DNA of 38,210 bases from Prasinococcaceae sp. CCMP 1430 (taxonomy: Eukaryota; Prasinodermophyta; Palmophyllophyceae; Prasinococcales; Prasinococcaceae). Below the pieces are notes generated by a model. The model searched no databases. It had not been told where the DNA came from and saw only the letters and a list, made by a program, of their open reading frames with translations. Below, piece after piece: positions 592-23,489 of the stretch. The stretch spans positions 497,067 through 535,276 of the forward strand of contig RQSC01000002.1 of assembly GCA_013416795.1 (NCBI GenBank), written 5' to 3'. Positions within the stretch are counted from its first letter, which is position 1; each line of letters starts with the position of its first letter. Both the position numbers and the translations under genes were made by a program.

Positions 592-3500
592 ATGATGAAC
601 AGCCTCCCGCAGGCGGACGCGCGCCGAGGCGCCACATGCGACGCTGATACCCGAGCTGCGAAGGATGTGCCCGAGACGTCGCCCGAGCCCAAGCCTGCCG
701 TGGCTGCTGAGTCGCTGGAGCCCGAGCTGGTCCTAGCTGCGGTGCGCGTCGAGCACCTCAAGTCAACGGACGTAGTCACGAAAGGCCCTAAGGCGGACGG
801 GAAGGCGCTGCGCGGCCTGAAGCGCTTCTATATGAAGGAACGTTCCGGAGGGAGCGAGGAGCTCCTGCTCGAGGCACAGGACTCCGAAGCTGGCGATGGC
901 CACTGGAACTACGTCGCCGTGGGCCGCTTCGAGTACCTGAACGCCAAGTCTGGTCCTGGTATCATGGAAGGTGAGCGTGCACGGTTGAAGCGCCACCCCA
1001 CACACTCCCACCCCAAATGTGCTTACCTCGTGAATTCATACACGCACCTGTCCCCGCGCACACGGCCACGTGGTGCCCTGCGCGCATGGCGTGGCGATAA
1101 ACAATGCGCTGACGCCGCGGTGGCGCCTGGCCGGCCATCGGCGCATGCAGTCAAAAACAACGCCGATCTGTTGGAGTGGTTCAAGACGACCTTCACACGG
1201 ATCTCCGTACCGGATCTGCCGAAGGCGCTCAGAGCATTTGTGCGTGGCAAGCGAGACTTACCGTCGACGGATTCCAGCGTGGACGCGGTGCGCGCAAAGT
1301 GGGGTTTGCCGCGCGCCGCGCCGAAACCAAGGGCGGCCACGAAGCAGGCGAAGAAGGTGGCCGGCAGCAAGCCGCATTGGATGCACCCAGACTACCCACG
1401 CACGGGCAAGGCTTCGGAGCTCACAAAGGAGGAGCTTCTGCAAGGGTTGCCGGCCACGTTGAAGGAATCCCGATGGGACGAAGGTCACATGCGCAAGGTG
1501 GTCAAAGGTGCGCTCGCGCGCGCTGCGTCGCGCCGAACGCACGTGGTGGTGCGTGGCAAGTACTCTCTCCCGCGCGCTTTGACGACTCCATGTCCTGACA
1601 GCGCGTGCGCGTTCCTTCTTCCCGCGTAGGCCACGCGCGCGTGAGCGTGTACTGGTCGGCCGAGGGAGCGTGGTTCGATGGTTCGGTCTTGTCCATTGGA
1701 AAGGACGGGTACATGACCGTCTGGTTCGACGACGACGAGGGCTACGCATATGACCTCGATAAGTGGTCCAACTGTGGCGCTATCGAGTTCGCGTCAGCAG
1801 TGAAGGACAAAAGCGTCCCACCTAAAGCCCTACAATGCCGAGCAAGCGAGTATCCTGAGCTCCCGGACAGACAACTTTGGGTGCCAGGAGGGAAAAGAGC
1901 TCCACCGGCCGAGCAAGGCGATATCGACTCCCCTCCTTCGCGGCGCTCCTCGCGGCCTACTTCCCCTCCAACGGCCTACTGGGACGCCGCCACGAACAAA
2001 GGCAAGGTCACGCTGAAGGGAAAGTTCGGATCGCCCAAAGTCAAAAAGCGTGGACCCAGCGAGTCGGACGACACGGAGTTGAGCGAGGGCTGGGGGGAGG
2101 AGTTTTTGACGCCGGAGAAACGATCGAAGCGCGCAGGCGACGACGTCGCTGCGAGCGTTGAGGCCGCTGCCAGTGTCAAGCGGCGGAAGAAGCAGATTCG
2201 CAGGGACGGCGTGCACAGCAGAAATGTGACCGTGACAGGGGCCCTGGCTGCCGTGGGCAAGAAACCGGCGGGCGCGGCAGGGGCTCAAAAGGAGATCAGG
2301 AAGGCGGTGGACCCCCGCTCGCGTGGTGTCGGACACAAGCAGCTCAATCGTGCCCTTAAGGGGAAAGGCCCTGCGATCGAGTCTCGTATGGATGCGGGCA
2401 AGCCCAAGCAACCGACGAGGCCAGTTGCAGTGCCGCCCGAGCCAGCATCATTGAGGAGAGGGGAGAAGACGGCAGCGGAGGATGCCCCGCGCGCCGCCCT
2501 GCCCAAGCCCAAGCCCAAGCTGAAAGTCCTGCATGCAGCGAAGAAGACTTCTGTGCTCGGATTCCTCAAGAAGGATGCCACCACAGTGAAGTCAGCAGCG
2601 CGTATGCCAGCTCCGACTCAGAATCCGCCGGGCCCGGCGGCTGCTGCTGGTGGTTGGGACGAGTGGGGCGACCCGGGCTCTGGCGCCGGGAAGGAGACAG
2701 CATCGAGGAGCGCCGCGGACGGCGCAGTCGACCCAGCTTCGCTGAAGACCTCCAAGGAGGCCTTGCACACGCTGCTCACTCTCATGCAGCGCCCAACCGA
2801 ACTGAATGACGACTCTCGCCTGCCAGCTCTGAGCCGCGTAGCGGCGCGTGCGTACGCCCTCGGCTCCGAGACTGTGGTGGAACACATTCTCAAGACCATG
2901 GAGGTCGGCGCGCACCCGCGCACCAGGGTGCAGAAAATCAAGCTGATCGACCACATTCTCTTCCGCGCGTTCGAGGCGCTGTCGGCGCCCGGGGCCGGGA
3001 ACGTCGATCCTCCTGCTGCTGGGAATGCGAGTGAAGAGTGGGCGCTCGCCGCTGAACATGCGAAGGGGCTTTGCAAACGGATTGGCAAGGCGGTGGGGCG
3101 AATTGCCATAGCGGGCTGCCCCGAGGAGAAAGGCGGTTCTTATGGCAAGGTCCGCTCGCACACGCAGAAGGTGCTGACGAAGTGGATGAACGCGAAACCG
3201 CTGCTCGCTGCGATGTATCCCGACGCTGCGAGCGCGGACGAAACGGCAGGCAGCATCAAAGCGCTCGACGACGCCATTGTCCGGGTAGCCGCGATGGTCT
3301 CCAAGCTCGATGGCAAGCTGTGCACAGATATGCAGCGTGCGCAACGCGACCACCGGAAGAACGACGCGTCGGTGCTCGACATCTTTTCCGACATTGACCA
3401 ATTCGGCCGCAATGCCGCGCCGAGGCCCGACGCGGCCGGGGTGAACGGCGACGAGAAACTCATCCCCAACGATGATATCGCGGAACTCGGCAGGGCGCTC

Positions 3501-4736
3501 TGGGATGGCGAAGTCCCTGACGACCTCGGCGATGCGTACCTCTTTGAGGACGACCTCGGCGGGTGCGGCGTCGACGAGGAGGAGGCGGAGCGGCTCAGGG
3601 CGGAGGAGATTCGCGCGCTGGCAGAGAGCGACGCGGCGCCCAAACTGCAGGGAGCCCAACCGGCGCTCGTTGGCCCTCCCTCTCCACTCTCTCCGCAGAC
3701 CCAACCCACAGCTGTCCCGGGCATCGGGCCTTCAAACGCGCATCAGGCGAAGCCGGTGCAAACGTCAATCTTTCCGTCAGCCCCAGCGATGGCCCTGGCT
3801 CCACCCTCATCTGAGCAAGCGCCCGTTCCGCCTCCCGTACAGCAGCATCCACCTGCCTTTGTGGGGGCGCAGGCCGCCAAGGTAGCGCAGCCGAAGATGC
3901 AGATACAGCTGACCGTGCCAAAAGAGGCCGTGCACGCGGCGATAGCGCGAGAGGCCTCCAGGGGGGGCGATGCTGGCGCGCACTTGGAAGATGCCGGGCC
4001 TGCCGCCGCTGGCCGTGCGCTCGTGGACGCTCGGAGGGATAAGGAGGCGGCGCGCGAGTTTCGTCAGCACGAGCGCGAGGAGCTGCAGGTCGCGCGTCAA
4101 GGCGAGCGTGATCACCGCGGTCATGGCCGTGGCGAGGATCGTGACCCCCCTCGGCAGTCTGATGGCCACTGGCGGCAACGCGAGCGCGAGGACGGTCGTG
4201 GTTATGGTCGCGAGGGCGGACGCGATCGCTACGGCGGCGGCGAGTGGGATCGCGAGCGCGAGCGCGAGCGCGAGTGGGATCGCGAGCGCGAGCGCGAGCG
4301 CGAGCGCCGCGATGGTCGTGATCCTTACCGCAGGCACGACGAGCGCGAGCGCGTCGATGGCCGCGGCATTGTGCGTCACGAGAACAGGGAGCGTGGCAAC
4401 ATGTTCGGCGGAGGGCGAGGCAGCGGGCGTCCAGGGGGCGACCGCGGCCCTGGTCATTTCCCGAATGCCGGCCACCCTGGGGAGCGCGGCGGTGGTCGCT
4501 ACGACCGCTCGGCGCCTCGGCACGACGGGCCTCGCGCCAGCGACATGCGCGGTTGGGCCAGGCACGAGCACGAGCGCCGCCGTGATCAGGGCCCTGCGAG
4601 GTGGAGTCAAGGCGGCGACTTCGGCCGGCGCAGCAGCGACGGTGGCAGGCGCAGCAGCGGCGGCGGCAGCGGGCACGGCCCGGGAAGTCGCCCACCAGGC
4701 GCCTACGACCGCGGCGAATCCGCGCTCGGCCGCTAG
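592..4736 (+). CDS. Tudor-like / CID-like nuclear protein with RE- and RG-rich tail (3 exons)
   Basis: Inferred join 592-970, 1151-1507, 1630-4736, giving 1280 aa. Intron 971-1150 (donor GTGAGC, 180 bp) removes a low-complexity in-frame stretch. Intron 1508-1629 (122 bp, acceptor GCGTAG) is required by a frame change and joins VVKG to HARVSVYW. Residues about 247-302 look like a Tudor/PWWP-type barrel (YWSAEGAWFDG, DGYMTVWFDDDEGYAYDL). A Lys-rich region with candidate nuclear localisation signals follows. Residues about 617-775 are helical and resemble a CTD-interacting (CID/RPR) domain (IKLIDHILF, KVRSHTQKVLTKW). The last ~230 residues are Arg/Glu repeats then RG/GGR-rich sequence. Chromatin or RNA-reader plus CID plus RE/RG tail recalls plant HUA2-like and SCAF-type proteins that couple Pol II to RNA processing. 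That role is inference; the residues 592-1507 encode are unrecognised. The true start could be upstream. Confidence 0.65.
4242..4301 (+). repeat. 30-bp in-frame tandem duplication
   Basis: Two copies of a 30-bp unit beginning GAGTGGGATCGCGAGCGCG, each encoding EWDRERERER in the Arg/Glu tail of the preceding gene. The sequence just 3' continues with shorter GAGCGC units. The length is a multiple of three, so the frame is kept. Confidence 0.85.
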
Positions 4737-4842: not shown

Positions 4843-7247
4843 TCACGCCGTCCCATCGGCGATGATCTTGTAGATGGCGTGTGTTTTGTTGGCCTTGATG
4901 GCCGCGCGGCACGCGCTCACCACCTTCACCTTGTGCGCGCCGTTGCGCAGTTTGGCTGCTCGCTGGATCATCTGGTTGACCTCCTTGAGCGAGGCAAGCA
5001 GCTCTGAATGGTTTGTAGCGCGCTTCGTGTGCTCGAGCACGAGATCTCTGTTCGCGTCGCGCATGGCGCCATACATCTTGCACATGTGCGGCATGTTGCC
5101 CATCAGGCGCGCATCTTCGGCCTTCACGACGAGTGCCTTCACAGTGTTGGTGATCTCCGCCATCTCTGCTGTCATTCGCACGCGAGTGTCGTTGTACTGC
5201 TCGACGCGTGCGAGCACCTCAGCGAATGTATCCATCTGCGTGGGAAAGTCCGCCTGCGACTCGAGGTCGGTGATGTCAAGCACCGCACAGATGTCTTGCA
5301 CGATGTTGCCCGCCACATCCATATCCTCGCAACGCACCGTGACCTCCCCCACCGCAGCGTTCGCCCGGATGGCCAACGCGGAGCCGTCGCGCAAGCTCAC
5401 GAAGACCTCGTTGACGTTGCCAGAATCGTCAACCACTCTTGCCGGCGCCAAAGCCCCCTCTTTCTCCGCGCCCGATGCCAAGGAAGTACCAATCCAATGC
5501 GCAAGCATCGGTATGGCGCTGGGCGACAGTGAGAACGTGACGCCGGCGTTAGGCACGGGCACCTGGCCCGGCGCTGCACGCTTGTACATCGCGTACGCGC
5601 CCAGGGTCTCCTCAAGCTCGAACACGTGGTACCCCGCCGCGCCGGGCATGGACACAATGACTTTGCCGACGATGGCAACGGGCTGGTCCACCTTGGGGCG
5701 CAGCTGAACTCGGAACTCGGAGGCCGGCTGGGAGGGCACAGCATAGAGGCTCTCGTCGGTGAAGATGCGCTCGCCAAAAATCAGTGCCCCAGTGATGACT
5801 GCAGGTGGCGTGCAGTTCAGCACGAGGTCGATGGCGCCTGCGCGAACGTTCTGCTCGAGGCGGTGATCAAGGCGCGTTGAGACGGGGATGACCGACGATG
5901 TGTTGGAGGAGGCACCCTTGCCTACACGCGCGTCCAGCGCCTGCAGCTGGAAGAGCAGCTCGGCGCGAGTCTGGGCCAGCGATTGGATCCGCTCCTCGTT
6001 GGCGTCAGCGTCCATCAACGAGCCGGCGCCATCGCCACCGATGTTGTTCAAGCCTGCATCGTCTGCCACACGCTCGGCGGGCAGGTAGCCCTTGACCTCA
6101 CCGTTCACACTGCACACGATCAGCTCGTCCTTGCCGTCCATGCGATAGTCGGCCACATCTACCGCCGCCACCGCCGACCCGAGGTTGTCCTTGTACACAA
6201 TCTCGCCCGTGGACTCGAGGCGCACCTCAAGTTTGCCGTTGGACCATCCGGAGACAAGCTCAGGGACGCCATCGTCGTCGAGATCGTACGCGCCTAGCGC
6301 TTTCACCTGATATTTGGACTTCACGCGCCACGCGCGCGCCCCGCGACTGTAAACGCCAACCGTGCCGTTGCCTAGCGCGTAGCCGTAGGTCACGCCAGAC
6401 AGATCGGTCAGACCAACGATCCGCTCAGCTTCCGTGGTCTCGGCGATGACCTCCTCGCCACGGAAAACGCGGATGTCAAAGTCGTCCGAGCCCACCACAA
6501 GCTCCTTCTTACCGTCACCGTCCACGTCCGCAAGGCACATTGCGCCCACGTTATCCCCCGTCACCGTCCACAACGCCTCCTCGCCCGCCGCGTCGAGACC
6601 GATCACCGAGCAGTTGCCACCCACGATGGCGAGCGGCGCGCCATCGCCGGCGCCATGCAGCGGCCCCACCGCCAGCCGAGACACGCCATCCTGCATCTCC
6701 TTGAACCAGCTGTCGGCATTGCGGTGCACGTCATAGGCCAGCAAGTTGGACGCGGTCCCGACAAGCAGTACGTCGCGCCCGCCGGCCGCGCTCGCCGCTT
6801 GCACGCCCGCCCCACCGCCACCCCCACCACCCCCGCCGCCGAGCGACCCCGCCGCTAGCGCTGTCACTGCCGCCGCCGCGTTCAAGTAGCTCACATCCGA
6901 GCCCGCCGCAGCAGCAGCAGCGTCGCCGTTCGCCACCTATGCTCCCCGCCGCGACGGACACGTCGGGGATCGGAGATGGCAATGCGGGCGCAGTGGTTAG
7001 CACACACTGCGCGCTCAGAGTCGTTCGCGGGCACGCACCCGGAGGCGCAGGGGCGCCGCCACGCGCGCGCGCGCACGCTGGCACGCGTCCGCTGCTAGCA
7101 CGCTGCGCACCTGGCGCGCGCGATGTGGGTTGTGTACGAATATCTTGCCGCCGGTGGTCGCGGCCGTCAGGCAGGGGTGCTCGCCGTCATACTTGCCGAC
7201 CGTCGCCAGCCCAGGCTGGATGGAGTCGCTCAGATGCAGCTGGAACG
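4843..7247 (-). CDS. BBS2: Bardet-Biedl syndrome 2 protein, BBSome subunit
   Basis: BBS2 is a subunit of the BBSome, the coat-like complex that carries membrane proteins in and out of cilia. Exons on the minus strand: 7247 (approximate) to 7111, then 6936-4843. Intron 7110-6937 (174 bp, donor GTGCGC, acceptor ATAG) is phase 0 and joins HNPHRARQ to VANGDA. It restores the conserved order GKYDGEHPCL, KIFVHNPH, SDVSYLNAAAAV, LLVGTASNLLAYDV. Downstream are the family blocks WTVTGDNV, DVDGDGKKELVVGSDDFDI, YALGNGTVGVYS and GWSNGKLEVR of the N-terminal beta-propeller, then the GAE/coiled C-terminal part. Total is about 740 aa, close to the usual ~720. A Gly/Ala insert sits near the second exon start. 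The initiator Met lies in a further 5' exon that I could not fix; the 7247 boundary rests on a CAG acceptor. It faces SPCS3 divergently. Confidence 0.93.
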
Positions 7248-7695
7248 CTGCGGTCGGGTGGGCGCGCAGGCAAACGCAGGTGAGCACGCGCGGAGGGGGG
7301 AAGCGGCGCGGCGCAGCCACGCAGGCGCATAGTCGGGCGCCACTGCGGTCAGCGCGCGCCCTCGAGCTCGGTCGCGCGGACGCGCTCACATGCATCCACG
7401 CGCTCCCTCGCGCTCTCTCTCTCCCTCTCTCTCTCTCCATTCACAAGCACGCGTTTGAACGGGGCGTGCCGCCGCACGCGCTCGAGCGCACGCCGCGCCC
7501 CGCCCCGAGCGCGCGCGCGCGCTGGGGGCGGAGCCGGGCGGGGCTGCTGCGGCCGGGCGGGGCCGAGCGGCCGCACCTTGCGCCCACGCACGGGCGGAGG
7601 CGTGGGCGGGCGAGAGGGAAAGAGGGCGCACGGGCTGCGGCCGTCGCGGCGAACGGCCGCAGCGAGAGTTGGGGGTGAGTGGGGGGAGCGCAGCC
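7248..7695. promoter_or_regulatory. BBS2 / SPCS3 divergent intergenic region
   Basis: About 450 bp between divergent genes. It should hold both promoters and the missing first BBS2 exon. It contains a CT-rich run near 7411-7439 and GC-box-like GGGGCGGAGC / GGGCGGGGC motifs around 7530-7565. No TATA-like element is visible. Candidate BBS2 start codons on the minus strand lie at 7440 and 7395, but no splice pairing is compelling. Confidence 0.4.
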
Positions 7696-8438
7696 ATGTA
7701 CTCCTTCCTCAATCGCCTCAACGCGCTCGCGACCTTCGGGGTGTTCGGTCTGCTTATCCTCACGACGCTTGCGAGCCTCAGCGACTACATGCATGAGCCC
7801 AAGGTCCGCGGCCCGGCCGCGCGCGCGATGCTGCCGCGCGCCACCAGCGGCCCCTGCGATCTGCGCGGTGCGAGACGCCCTTCTGACACGCCCCCTCCCC
7901 GCCCGTCCGCCCTGCGCTTGCGCTCCTCCGTCCGAGCGCTGCGCAGCCCCAGGTCACGCTCACGCTGCGAGGTGTCGACAGATTGAGTCGGCTCGGCGCC
8001 GAGCGCGGCTCGGGGGGCAGCGGCGCCGACGAGGCACAGCTGAGCATGGCGCTGCAGGCGGACATGCGCTCGGTGTTCTCGTGGAACACCAAGCAGATTT
8101 TCATGTTCGTGCAGGCGGAGTACGCCACCGAGGACAACAGGCGCAATCAGGTGAGCGTATGGGACCGAATCATCGAGCACAAGGAGGACGCCGTGCTCAA
8201 CCTGCCGCACGTGCGCAACAAGTATCGCTTCATCGACGCCGACGCCGACCTGCGCGGGCGGCCCTTCAACCTGACGCTCACATGGAACGTCATGAACAAG
8301 GTGGGCGGCACGTACTTCGACTCGCACACCGTGCCCGATCTCGTGCTACCGACGGAGTACGATACCGCGCCGCCGCCGCGGAATAGCCCGGGGCGCGGCC
8401 GGCGCGGCGTGCGCGGCGGGAACGGGGCTCTGCGATAG
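7696..8438 (+). CDS. SPCS3: Signal peptidase complex subunit 3
   Basis: Non-catalytic subunit (SPC22/23, yeast Spc3) of the ER signal peptidase complex, which removes signal peptides from secretory proteins. Exons 7696-7803 and 7953-8438 give 197 aa. Intron 7804-7952 (149 bp, GTCCGC...CCCCAG) is phase 0 and joins SDYMHEPK to VTLTLRGVDRLSR. The N-terminal hydrophobic segment (LATFGVFGLLILTTLA, about residues 11-26) is the single type II membrane anchor. The lumenal domain shows DMRSVFSWNTKQIFMFVQAEY, NQVSVWDRII and FNLTLTWNVM, all diagnostic of the family. The last ~20 residues are Arg/Gly/Pro-rich and not conserved. The ATG at 7696 directly precedes YSFLNRLNAL, matching the family N-terminus. 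The gene converges on the mitochondrial carrier 170 bp away. Confidence 0.93.
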
Positions 8439-14898: not shown

Positions 14899-16529
14899 AT
14901 GGACTTTTCCGAGTCGTACCAGCACAGCGGCGCGGTGGCGTGGAGCCCCGGCGGGACGCTGCTCGCGACGGCGGTGGACTTCCGTGTGGTGGTGCGCGAC
15001 GCGGACTCGCTGGCGGTGGAGCGCCTCTTCTCATGCCTCGACCGCGTGGCCGCGGTCGCGTGGTCGCCCGACGGCCAGTTCCTGATGGCGAGGCTCGCCA
15101 AGCGCGCCGTGCTGCAGGTGTGGTGCGTGTCGCGCCCCGAGTGGACGTGCCGCATCGACGAGGGCGCCGCGGGGCTCGGCCACGCCGCCTGGGCGCCGTG
15201 CTCGCGTCACATCATCACCGTGTCCGAGCTCGGCGTCCGCGCGACCGTCTGGTCGCTCGGCGACCGCGCGCGCGCGTCCATCGGCGCGCCCAAGCACGCC
15301 GACGGCGCCGGCATCAGCTTCGGTGGCGAGCGGCCCGGCGCGGGCGAGGACGAGCTGGGCGTCGCGGCGACGCCCAAGGTGGGCGCGTGGCTGGCGGTGC
15401 TCGAGCGCAGGGCGTGCAAAGATTACGTCGCTGTGTACGATGCGGGAACCTTCGAGCTCGCCGCCAGGTTCAAGGCGAGCACGGCGGACGGTGAGGGGCG
15501 CGCGCCCCGCCTCGCCGCCTCACGGCGCCGCGGCGCCGCCGCGACGCGGCAAAGCGCGTGCACGCGCCTTCCCCAGCCCCCACCGCGCACAACACGCGCT
15601 GACGACGACCATAACCACCTTCGCCTCCTTTCGCGCGCGCTGGTTGCTCGCGCATGCGGCCTCGCACGCCACGCCCGCCCCCGCGCGCGCGCGCAGCGTC
15701 GGACCTGGCGTGGTCCCCCGACGGGACGGCCATCGCCGTGTGGGACTCGCCGCTCGAGCACCGCGTATGCCTGCACGCCCCGGATGGGGCGCTGCTCGGC
15801 GAGTACAGCGCGTACAGCGGCGCCCTCGGAATCAAGTGCGTGCGCTGGGCGCCCAGCGGGCAGCTGCTCGCGGTGGGGTCGTACGACGAGCGGCTGCGCG
15901 TGCTCAACCACCTCACGTGGCAGCCGCTGGCGGAGTGCGCGCACCCGTCCAACGTACGCTCGCCCGAGGACGCGGTGGTGTACAAAGAGGTGGTCGAGCG
16001 CCCGCAGGTGGAGCCCGAGGAGGTGGTGGAGACGGAGAGGCACGGCGGCGACGGCGACGGCCTGGCGGCGGCGGCACGCCGCGGACGCTACGTCGTGTGC
16101 GCGCTGCCTGAGGCGGTGCCCGTCGCGCGGCCGCCGCAGGCGCGCGCCAATCCCAAACTGGGGGTGGGCACGGTGGAGTGGTCGCCCGACGGGAGCTACG
16201 TCGCGACGGTGAACGACAACATGGCGGGAGCGGTATGGGTGTGGGACATGCGCAGCCTCGCGCTGTCGGCGGTGCTGCTGCACGCCGAGCCTGTCGCGGC
16301 GGCCCGCTGGGAGCCATGCGCGGAGCGCGGCGCGGCGCCGCGACTCGCCATAGCCACGGGCGAGGGGCGGGTGGGCCTGTGGACGCCCGAGGGCGTCAGC
16401 TGCGTGCACGTCCCGCTGCCGGGCTTCAGGTGCAGCGACCTGCTGTGGAACCCGGCGCCGCCGGGTGGCGCGCCCAGCTTCGTGCTCATCGACCGTGGGA
16501 GCCTCACCGTCGCCTTCCTCGATGGCTGA
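14899..16529 (+). CDS. WRAP73: WRAP73/WDR8, centrosomal/spindle-pole WD-repeat protein
   Basis: WRAP73 (WDR8) is a WD-repeat protein that works at centrosomes, spindle poles and ciliary basal bodies, with SSX2IP-type and kinesin-14 partners in animals and fungi. Exons 14899-15490 and 15697-16529 give 474 aa (human about 460). Intron 15491-15696 (206 bp, GTGAGG...GCGCAG) is phase 1 and restores ASDLAWSPDGTAIAVWDSPL. Family blocks include MDFSESYQ at the start, RVVVRDADSL, PEWTCRIDEG, RRACKDYVAVYD, EYSAYSGALGIKCV, LLAVGSYDERLRVLNHLTW, RANPKLGVG and NDNMAGAVWVWDM. The ATG is fixed by similarity to the family's MNFSE start. A low-complexity Val/Glu/Gly insert lies near residues 300-330. Gene order and strand imply its promoter is shared with the ClpR-like gene. 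Confidence 0.95.
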
Positions 16530-20297: not shown

Positions 20298-22232
20298 TCA
20301 GAAATTTGAGAAGTTCCCGTAGCCGCCCGACTGCTTGCTCTTCTTCTGCGGCGGCGCAAAGGAGCCGCCCGCGCCCGCTCCTCGACCGGCCGCGGCAGCA
20401 GCGGCGGGAAGGTATTTACCCACGCCGCTGCCGCGCTGGGCCGGCGCCGAAACCTTAGGAACGCCAAGCCAAGACTGGCCATCGTCTAGATCGATCTGCG
20501 TGCGATGAGCTTGTTCGGCCTGCTCGCGCTGCGCGTCGGCGCTCGCTCGCGTCCGCGCCTCCTCTTCTTCCTTGATTTTCTGGTACGGGTCGACGAAAAT
20601 GGTCACCTTCTCGATGGTGACGGGTTGCGTTGGCCTGTCGCCCTCGCCCGTGGGCACCGCCTCGAGGGCGTTGAGCACATCTAGACCGCCCACCACTCGG
20701 CCGAAGACGCTGTGCTTGTTGTCGAGGTGGCGCGCCTGCCGGTACAGCACGAAGAACTGCGACTTGTTGGTGTGCGGCCCCGAGTTGGCCATTGACAGCA
20801 CGCCACGCGCGTCGTGCGCGAGGCGATTGTCGAACTCGTCTTTGAAGGGCTTCCCCCACATGCTCTCGCCGCCACGACCGCTGCCGGTGGGGTCGCCCCC
20901 CTGTATCATGAAGTTGCGGATAGACCGGTGGAAACCAACACCGTCGTAGTAGCCCTTGCGGCAAAGCCCCAGGAAATTCTCGCAGGTGCGCGGCACCAGG
21001 TCGCAGTGCAGCTCCACGTTCAGGTCGCCGTGTGACGTGTGCAGCCGCACGTAGCCCTTTTCCTTGGGCGTCTCCACCTTCCGAACAAGCACCAGCTCCT
21101 GCCCTCCCGCGATGGGCGCCGCGCTCGATGTGAAGCAAGCGCCAGCGGCGCCCGTAGCGCGACGCTTGAGCTCGTATCCCTCCGGCACGTTCATCTCCTC
21201 AAGCCTGGCGGCCTTGGAGGCCTTGGCGCCGCGCTTGTCTAGATGGTCAAGCAATACCGGCTGCGGGCGGTTGGGCCCCCCGTCGCCACTTCCGCCCCCG
21301 AAGACGATGACGTCCTCACCGCGCTGCGCGGCGAGCGCGGCGGCATGCTCCGCTGTGCCGGGAGCATTCCCACCGAGCGCGTTGCGCGCGCGAACACGCC
21401 GGCCTGCAATGACGATCGAATCGTCGTCGCCGTCGACGGCGTCGCGGCCCTCCGCAGCGCGCTTGCGCGCGGCGCGTTCGGCGGCGCGGCGCGTCTCCTT
21501 TGCGCCGCCAATGGTGCCAATGTCCAGGGGGATGGCAGCGGGGCGCTCGCCGCTGGCCGCCAACTTGGCTGCCGCTGCGAGCGCGGCGCGCTGCCGACGC
21601 GGCGGCGGAGGGCGGGCCGCCGCCGCCGCCGCCTCGTCCGTGCCGAGCGCGCCCAGCGCCGCCTTGACGTCGGCGCTCATGCCGCCGGCGTGAACCGTCG
21701 CCCCATTTTGCTGCGCGCCGCCGACGCCCGAGCCGAGCTTCTTGCGCACGTGGTAAAATGTGTCGGGCGCCGGCCGAGCGGCGAGGGGGTCGCGCAGCGT
21801 GATCACGTCGGCGCGCGTGAACTTTTCGTCGCTCAGGAGGTCGCGCAGGTTCTTGGCGCGCAGGTTGAGCTCCTCGACGGCCTTGTAGCTGAAGACGTTG
21901 CCCGTGGTGCGTATGGCGGCGATCTTGGTGTGCTGCGTGAACGCCTCTCCAAGCACCGGGCAGCAGAGCTCGCCACCGGCGTTGCGCGCGTAGGTAAGGC
22001 GCACCAGCTCCTTGACGCGCAGCGGCGCGCCGCTCACCGGGTCGACGCCGTGCGCGCGCACGAACGGCACGGCGTTAGAGAGGTCGTACACTGTGCCGTC
22101 CGCCGGGTTACAGCACGGGTCGCGGAAGGGCTGCAGCGACAGAGCGCAGCAGTCGAACGGCACGCCCGTCGCCGGCGCCGCGTGGTAGGTAGACACGCCG
22201 CCGCCGCCAGCCTTGCCGCCGCCGGACGCCAT
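20298..22232 (-). CDS. PPIL2: U-box cyclophilin PPIL2 (CYC4/Cyp60 family)
   Basis: A nuclear spliceosome-associated peptidyl-prolyl isomerase-like protein with an N-terminal U-box that can act as an E3 ubiquitin ligase. Intronless, 644 aa (human 520). The U-box region (about residues 22-130) contains VPFDCCALSLQPFRDPCCNP, CPVLGEAFTQHTKI, and AIRTTGNVFSYKAVEELNLR with AKNLRDLLSDEKFTRADVITL. An Ala/Arg-rich linker longer than in animals follows. The cyclophilin domain is residues ~392-550, with the catalytic Arg in FHRSIRNFMIQGGDPTG and the block ANSGPHTNKSQFF. The cyclosporin-contact Trp of CypA is His here (ARHLDNKHSVFG), consistent with the family's divergence from CypA. The C-terminus GYGNFSNF matches the conserved PPIL2 end. 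The ATG begins MASGGGKAG. The gene is divergent from GLRX3 and convergent with the ORP gene. Confidence 0.95.
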   Translation of the reverse strand: MASGGGKAGGGGVSTYHAAPATGVPFDCCALSLQPFRDPCCNPADGTVYDLSNAVPFVRAHGVDPVSGAPLRVKELVRLTYARNAGGELCCPVLGEAFTQHTKIAAIRTTGNVFSYKAVEELNLRAKNLRDLLSDEKFTRADVITLRDPLAARPAPDTFYHVRKKLGSGVGGAQQNGATVHAGGMSADVKAALGALGTDEAAAAAARPPPPRRQRAALAAAAKLAASGERPAAIPLDIGTIGGAKETRRAAERAARKRAAEGRDAVDGDDDSIVIAGRRVRARNALGGNAPGTAEHAAALAAQRGEDVIVFGGGSGDGGPNRPQPVLLDHLDKRGAKASKAARLEEMNVPEGYELKRRATGAAGACFTSSAAPIAGGQELVLVRKVETPKEKGYVRLHTSHGDLNVELHCDLVPRTCENFLGLCRKGYYDGVGFHRSIRNFMIQGGDPTGSGRGGESMWGKPFKDEFDNRLAHDARGVLSMANSGPHTNKSQFFVLYRQARHLDNKHSVFGRVVGGLDVLNALEAVPTGEGDRPTQPVTIEKVTIFVDPYQKIKEEEEARTRASADAQREQAEQAHRTQIDLDDGQSWLGVPKVSAPAQRGSGVGKYLPAAAAAAGRGAGAGGSFAPPQKKSKQSGGYGNFSNF

Positions 22233-22363: not shown

Positions 22364-23489
22364 ATGGCTCCCGCGCGCGTGGAGGTGGCGTCGGCGGCGG
22401 ACCTCGCGGCACGGCTGGCGGCCGCGCCGGCGGCCGCCGTGCACTTCTGGGCGCAGTGGTGCGAGCCGTGCGGCGCGGTCGACGAGACGCTCGCCGCGCT
22501 CACCGCGGACAGCGGAGACGCGGGCGCACTGCTGCGCGTGGAGGCGGAGGCGCACTCAGAGATCGCCGAGGCGCACGGGGTTGCGGCGGTGCCGTGCGTG
22601 CTCGTGTTCAAGGGCGGTAAGCGAGTGGCCACTATCGAGGGGGTCAACCCACCCGCCCTCGCCGCCGCTGTTGAGGGCGCGTTCGGCGCTGCGCCGCCGG
22701 CGGCCCCTGCCGAGCCAGCCGCCGCTCCCGCGGCGCCTGCAAAGCGTCCTGTGGACGACCTGGCGGGCCTCGTTCGCTCGCACGACGTGATGCTCTTCAT
22801 GAAGGGCAACCCCGACGCGCCACGCTGCGGCTTCTCGCGCAAGGCGGTGGAGCGCCTGCAGGCGACCGGACACAAGTTCGGCACCTTCGACATCCTCGAG
22901 GACGAGGACGTCCGGCAGGAGCTCAAGAAGTTTTCGCAGTGGCCCACCTACCCGCAGCTATACCTCAAGGGCGAGCTGCTCGGCGGCAACGACATCATCC
23001 AGGAGATGGCTGAGAGCGGCGAGCTGCAGAAGACATTTGATGAGGTGCGCATGCTCCTTGCGCCGGTGGCATCGTTCCTGCTCACGCGCCAAGCCGCCCG
23101 CCGCATGCAACCCTGGACCCGGACACGGGCGCGCTGACCCCTGTCATCCCGAACCCTCTCCGCTGCAGGCGCTCAAGCGTCCTGTGGACGACCTGGCGGG
23201 CCTCGTTCGCTCGCACGACGTGATGCTCTTCATGAAGGGCAACCCCGACGCGCCACGCTGCGGCTTCTCGCGCAAGGCGGTGGAGCGCCTGCAGGCGACC
23301 GGACACAAGTTCGGCACCTTCGACATCCTCGAGGACGAGGACGTCCGGCAGGAGCTCAAGAAGTTTTCGCAGTGGCCCACCTACCCGCAGCTATACCTCA
23401 AGGGCGAGCTGCTCGGCGGCAACGACATCATCCAGGAGATGGCTGAGAGCGGCGAGCTGCAGAAGACGTTCGACGAGGCGCTCAAATGA
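22364..23489 (+). CDS. GLRX3: PICOT/GLRX3-type monothiol glutaredoxin (Trx-Grx-Grx)
   Basis: A cytosolic/nuclear [2Fe-2S]-binding protein of iron homeostasis and cytosolic Fe-S trafficking. Exons 22364-23044 and 23169-23489 give 333 aa (human 335). The intron 23045-23168 (124 bp, GTGCGC...CTGCAG) is phase 0. Residues ~1-110 are a thioredoxin fold with motif WCEPC (Cys33, Cys36). An Ala/Pro linker leads to Grx1 (CGFS at ~155) and Grx2 (CGFS at ~258), each with the [14 protein letters not shown] glutathione/Fe-S site and [16 protein letters not shown]. The two Grx repeats are identical in amino acids, which is odd for this family. If the intron is retained, the frame runs to a stop at 23135-23137, giving a Trx-Grx form with an unrelated tail. 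A nested shorter model cannot be ruled out. Confidence 0.92.
22742..23034 (+). repeat. Grx-domain duplication, copy 1
   Basis: 293 bases read identically to 23175-23467, offset 433. It encodes the first glutaredoxin domain from KRPVDD to QKT. The following codons differ only at third positions (ACATTTGATGAG against ACGTTCGACGAG). Confidence 0.93.
23175..23467 (+). repeat. Grx-domain duplication, copy 2
   Basis: Second copy of the 293-base direct repeat, in exon 2 of GLRX3, immediately after the 124-bp intron. No third copy is seen. Confidence 0.93.

Follow-up and report, generated by a model that had tools for sequence, protein, structure and literature searches.

Identical glutaredoxin domains within an algal GLRX3-type gene: a candidate 433-bp module homogenized inside the gene

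GLRX3 proteins of different eukaryotes carry one, two or three glutaredoxin (Grx) domains. A GLRX3/PICOT-type gene on the plus strand of the window analyzed here (the whole stretch of DNA under study, 38,210 nucleotides) carries two Grx domains that agree base for base over 293 bases, and this raises the question of how two domains of a single protein came to be, or to remain, the same in their DNA.

The coding sequence joins 22364-23044 to 23169-23489, a total of 1,002 nt specifying a product of 333 aa with the domain order Trx-Grx-Grx as assembled. The coding part of exon 1 (22364-23044; 227 codons, ending in phase 0) comprises a thioredoxin (Trx) domain, an Ala/Pro linker and Grx domain A, and exon 2 (23169-23489) encodes ALK, Grx domain B and TFDEALK, followed by the stop codon. 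Pfam recognized one thioredoxin domain in the product (PF00085; aa 18 to 102, 22415-22669, as also read from the sequence) and two glutaredoxin domains (PF00462), both with the CGFS motif (codons 22826-22837 in domain A and 23259-23270 in domain B). Pfam and the gene structure therefore agree with the preliminary description of this locus, which had proposed two CGFS Grx domains, one ending exon 1 and the other opening exon 2. Among solved structures the top PDB match was human GLRX3 (2yan), and the nearest structures overall, those of human and mouse GLRX3 and yeast Grx3, outranked E. coli GrxD, GrxS14 and GLRX5. With a Trx domain followed by CGFS Grx domains, and with GLRX3 proteins rather than the single-domain GRX5/GRXS14 proteins as its closest characterized relatives, the product belongs to the GLRX3/PICOT family.

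The Trx domain departs from the family in one respect. It has a WCEPC motif (22457-22471, aa 32 to 36) with both cysteines kept. In eukaryotic Trx-Grx fusions, by contrast, the Trx-like module has been described as being without WC[G/P]PC; the lack of a WCxPC dithiol active site is reported there as usual for the family but not as strictly required (PMC2679010). Upstream of the gene lies a divergent cyclophilin gene of the PPIL2 kind (20301-22232, minus strand), the two start codons being about 130 bp apart with a single N between them (22321, 43 bp upstream of the GLRX3 start codon, in a GC-rich stretch). This N resembles the mark that edges a piece of the same gene on another contig, described below. 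The light-harvesting proteins of the genome best match the poly-LHC chains of PDB entry 9vfj and green LHCs, and judging from these matches the source would be an alga with green-type light-harvesting proteins.

Extension of the repeat placed copy A at 22742-23034 and copy B at 23175-23467, both on the plus strand with a start-to-start distance of 433, and the two were identical at all 293 bases (97 codons), with no leftward extension; these are exactly the edges that the preliminary description had given. The pair is the only direct repeat of at least 40 bp in the 38-kb window. The first differences follow immediately on the right, at 23035 (A/G), 23038 (T/C) and 23041 (T/C). All three are silent third positions (ACA/ACG, TTT/TTC and GAT/GAC) with A or T in copy A and G or C in copy B, so that the changes right after the repeat are synonymous only, as had also been noted. 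Under the codon usage of the window, two identical proteins of this length would be expected to differ at 45 of 97 codons, and the probability of no difference is ~10^-29.8; we therefore rejected chance or codon bias as the cause of the identity (P ~ 10^-30). None of the ~65 synonymous sites has changed, which puts Ks between the two copies below ~0.046 (95%).

Outside the identical core, each copy keeps its own surroundings. The heads read GCA|AAG in copy A and CTC|AAG in copy B. The tail of copy A (23035-23044, plus strand), which carries the three silent differences and ends at the 5' splice site, reads ACA TTT GAT GAG and then enters the intron, while that of copy B reads ACG TTC GAC GAG GCG CTC AAA TGA. 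A simple assembly duplication is disfavored by these differing heads and tails, since a false copy would carry its borders too, and because the genome must contain both kinds of junction, it should have at least two Grx units. The left border of the core abuts a non-homologous linker, and differences are found at the other border only, where no change in 293 bp gives way to 3 in the 12 bp beside the intron; the probability that three differences in 305 bp would cluster in this way by chance is ~5e-5.

Between the two domains lies a 124-nt phase-0 intron of the GT-AG type (23045-23168, plus strand; GTGCGC...CTGCAG). A branch-point-like CTGAC motif occurs at 23134, its A lying 31 nt from the 3' end, and from these sequence signals we infer that the intron is spliced. 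Were it retained (23045-23137), an in-frame TGA at 23135-23137 would close the frame 30 residues after Grx domain A and would yield a Trx-Grx protein, the yeast-like one-domain form. Together with the exonic sequence that it separates, the intron makes up a 433-bp unit (22742-23174, plus strand) of 309 coding nt (103 codons) plus 124 nt of intron, and this unit recurs on a second contig, C125. No other occurrence of the intron was found in the genome. We considered whether it belonged to a mobile intron family and rejected the idea, since its only relative in the genome lies within the C125 unit.

The reading that we favor, with a probability of roughly 0.5, is that the gene encodes a Trx-Grx-Grx (or longer) GLRX3 built on a 433-bp Grx module, the cores of which are kept identical by intragenic recombination. 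The Grx domain would then be a movable module, consisting of 103 codons and a phase-0 intron, that is repeated head to tail, and the gain or loss of one unit would keep the reading frame (309 coding nt between phase-0 borders). Gene conversion or unequal crossing-over inside the gene would hold the unit cores identical. The homogenized stretch would stop at 23034, with the copies starting to diverge just before the intron, and the differences clustered there look like the edge of a conversion tract. We infer homogenization as the cause of the identity, with the reservation that there are only three silent changes, which could instead have accompanied intron gain or reflect selection on splicing signals.

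A second case in the same genome, seen in ~150 kb of sampled sequence, bears on this question. A NeuA-NeuB-NeuB fusion gene (minus strand, 5539-8322 of segment L034, G000:C100:1001-11000) encodes a cytidylyltransferase followed by two NeuB domains with SAF in one open frame without an intron. The NeuB domains, 1,128 bp apart (376 codons), are identical at 1,014 of 1,015 bp, and the one difference sits 4 bp from the border. Beyond the borders the flanks are about half identical, at 20 of 39 positions (p ~ 0.001) and 14 of 27 (p ~ 0.006), where the p values come from base shuffling on short stretches and ignore codon structure. This weak likeness of the flanks suggests, as far as such short sequences can, an old duplication with a homogenized core. 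Because of this second case, we read the GLRX3 identity as the product of a recurring, ordinary process in the genome and not as something specific to GLRX3. A search of viral contigs found no relative.

The leading alternative, which we regard as possible but unlikely, is that a Trx-Grx (or Trx-Grx-Grx) gene duplicated its Grx domain in tandem very recently and then acquired an intron where the copies meet (DE|AL), along with a few local changes, with no ongoing conversion. The low Ks of the core is what such an event would give, and so is the joint itself, GCGCTC-AAG, where the last domain's tail (GCGCTCAA, from the C-terminal EALK) leads into the next domain's head (AAGCGTCCT). In the protein this junction is EALK-RP, where the last domain's C-terminal EALK meets the KRP head of the next, as would be expected had this gene duplicated its own last domain in tandem; CAA is common to head and tail, a 3-bp microhomology of the sort that tandem duplication would leave. 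The explanation is weakened by the clustering of the only three differences at one edge and by its need for a second rare event, an intron gained so soon after the duplication, and one for which the genome offers no other relative to suggest a mobile origin. The preliminary description had offered recent duplication, gene conversion and assembly duplication side by side as origins of the identity. The last of these fares poorly in its simple form; recent duplication and homogenization both stand, with the edge clustering and the NeuB pair leaning toward homogenization. The same description had conjectured that the Trx-Grx-Grx form may have been regenerated here from a Trx-Grx ancestor.

How many units the gene has is a separate matter. 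When the repeat was searched against the full assembly, C125 proved to contain 745 nt of the 433-bp exon-plus-intron unit, amounting to 1.72 copies with zero mismatches (G000:C125 ~15290-16035, that is, ~3291-4035 of segment L017). This orphan piece of the GLRX3 array begins right after a single N at unit position 246, runs across one full unit to position 124 and breaks off sharply in unique sequence that lies upstream of a gene of the HlyIII family. Neither a start codon nor a Trx domain nor a terminal unit was found within the 745 nt. Free of mismatches even in its intron, the piece would fit an array longer than two units, and if it came from the GLRX3 locus, its two intron-linked units plus a third would imply three or more Grx domains. 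Gap filling that walks round a repeat would, on the other hand, give the same picture without a third unit. The array may thus exceed the two units of the window, or the C125 piece may be misassembled. Given this further array sequence, we treat the window's unit number as a minimum and regard the copy number as unsafe; the two units described previously are required by the distinct junctions, but the exact count is less certain, as further sequence of the array lies on C125.

The C125 piece could also be a real fragment of the GLRX3 array, recently transposed between two unrelated genes, although we consider this rather improbable. It does lie inside a contig of 234 kb with unique sequence on either side. 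However, a single N bounds it on one side, its intron and exon are without any change, and it has neither a start codon nor a Trx domain nor a terminal unit.

Least probable of the alternatives is that two or more real, slightly different Grx units were merged into one consensus, as a short-read assembler may have done. In that case assembly would account for the identity, the unit number and the C125 piece alike. The assembly has many long gaps (long runs of N are common) as well as occasional single Ns, the C125 piece with its 745 nt of cyclic unit, single N and abrupt end has the look of a contig end lengthened by cycling through a repeat, and the window holds no more units than are needed to use each junction a single time; yet the distinct heads and tails were kept separate, the NeuB pair retained its single difference so close to a border, and even a collapse masking every difference in 293 bp could happen only to units similar enough to merge. 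As a separate observation on the same assembly, kinase and light-harvesting genes occur in equal-score pairs across contigs (C43/C76, C62/C101, C3/C75 and C82/C84), which reflect either segmental duplication in the recent past or two haplotypes that were assembled separately.

An extension of homogenization within the gene, which we hold to be a long shot, is that this alga repeatedly duplicates whole enzyme domains in frame and that recombination keeps them identical, GLRX3 being a domain-counting locus at which the number of 433-bp units (Trx-Grx2, Trx-Grx3 and so on) varies between individuals.

Human GLRX3 (PICOT/Grx3) has the same domain order as the algal protein, Trx-GrxA-GrxB, and in each of the two proteins both Grx domains have CGFS. 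The algal unit is identical to human GrxB at 52 of 87 residues and to GrxA at 49 of 87. Within human GLRX3, GrxA and GrxB share 57 of 87 aligned residues (30 differ), whereas the algal pair is identical even in DNA. Plant GRXS17 (Trx-Grx-Grx-Grx) belongs to the same family and the green lineage and likewise has repeated CGFS domains after Trx (PMC3721309), but it has three Grx domains where the alga has two assembled, with the hint of more on C125. Yeast Grx3 and Grx4 (Trx-Grx) are also of this family, and the algal unit matches 5y4u, a yeast-type monothiol glutaredoxin-3; they have a single Grx domain only, the form to which retention of the algal intron would lead. Tandem domains known to be homogenized within a gene share with the algal pair identical cores, apparently sharp edges and a frame-preserving unit. 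Unlike them, the algal unit has its own intron and encodes Fe-S-binding redox domains in a housekeeping gene.

By analogy with its relatives, we predict an ordinary GLRX3 function for the protein, in cytosolic iron and Fe-S delivery. Each CGFS domain would be capable of holding a bridging [2Fe-2S] cluster together with glutathione, and the two should bind equivalently, position being the sole difference between them. Identical domains would fit a role in which the second Grx adds dose and not a new function; in HeLa cells, Trx and one Grx domain suffice (PMC12375892). Should the identity prove a mere effect of assembly, it would serve as a warning about domain counts taken from gappy assemblies. 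If real, a gene with identical Grx domains is a natural test in which effects could come from where the clusters sit and how many there are, but not from sequence. Plants and protists may have duplicated the Grx domains of this family independently, and a domain unit bearing a phase-0 intron offers a plain path for the repeated gain and loss of domains that the family's proposed convergence would need (PMC2679010).
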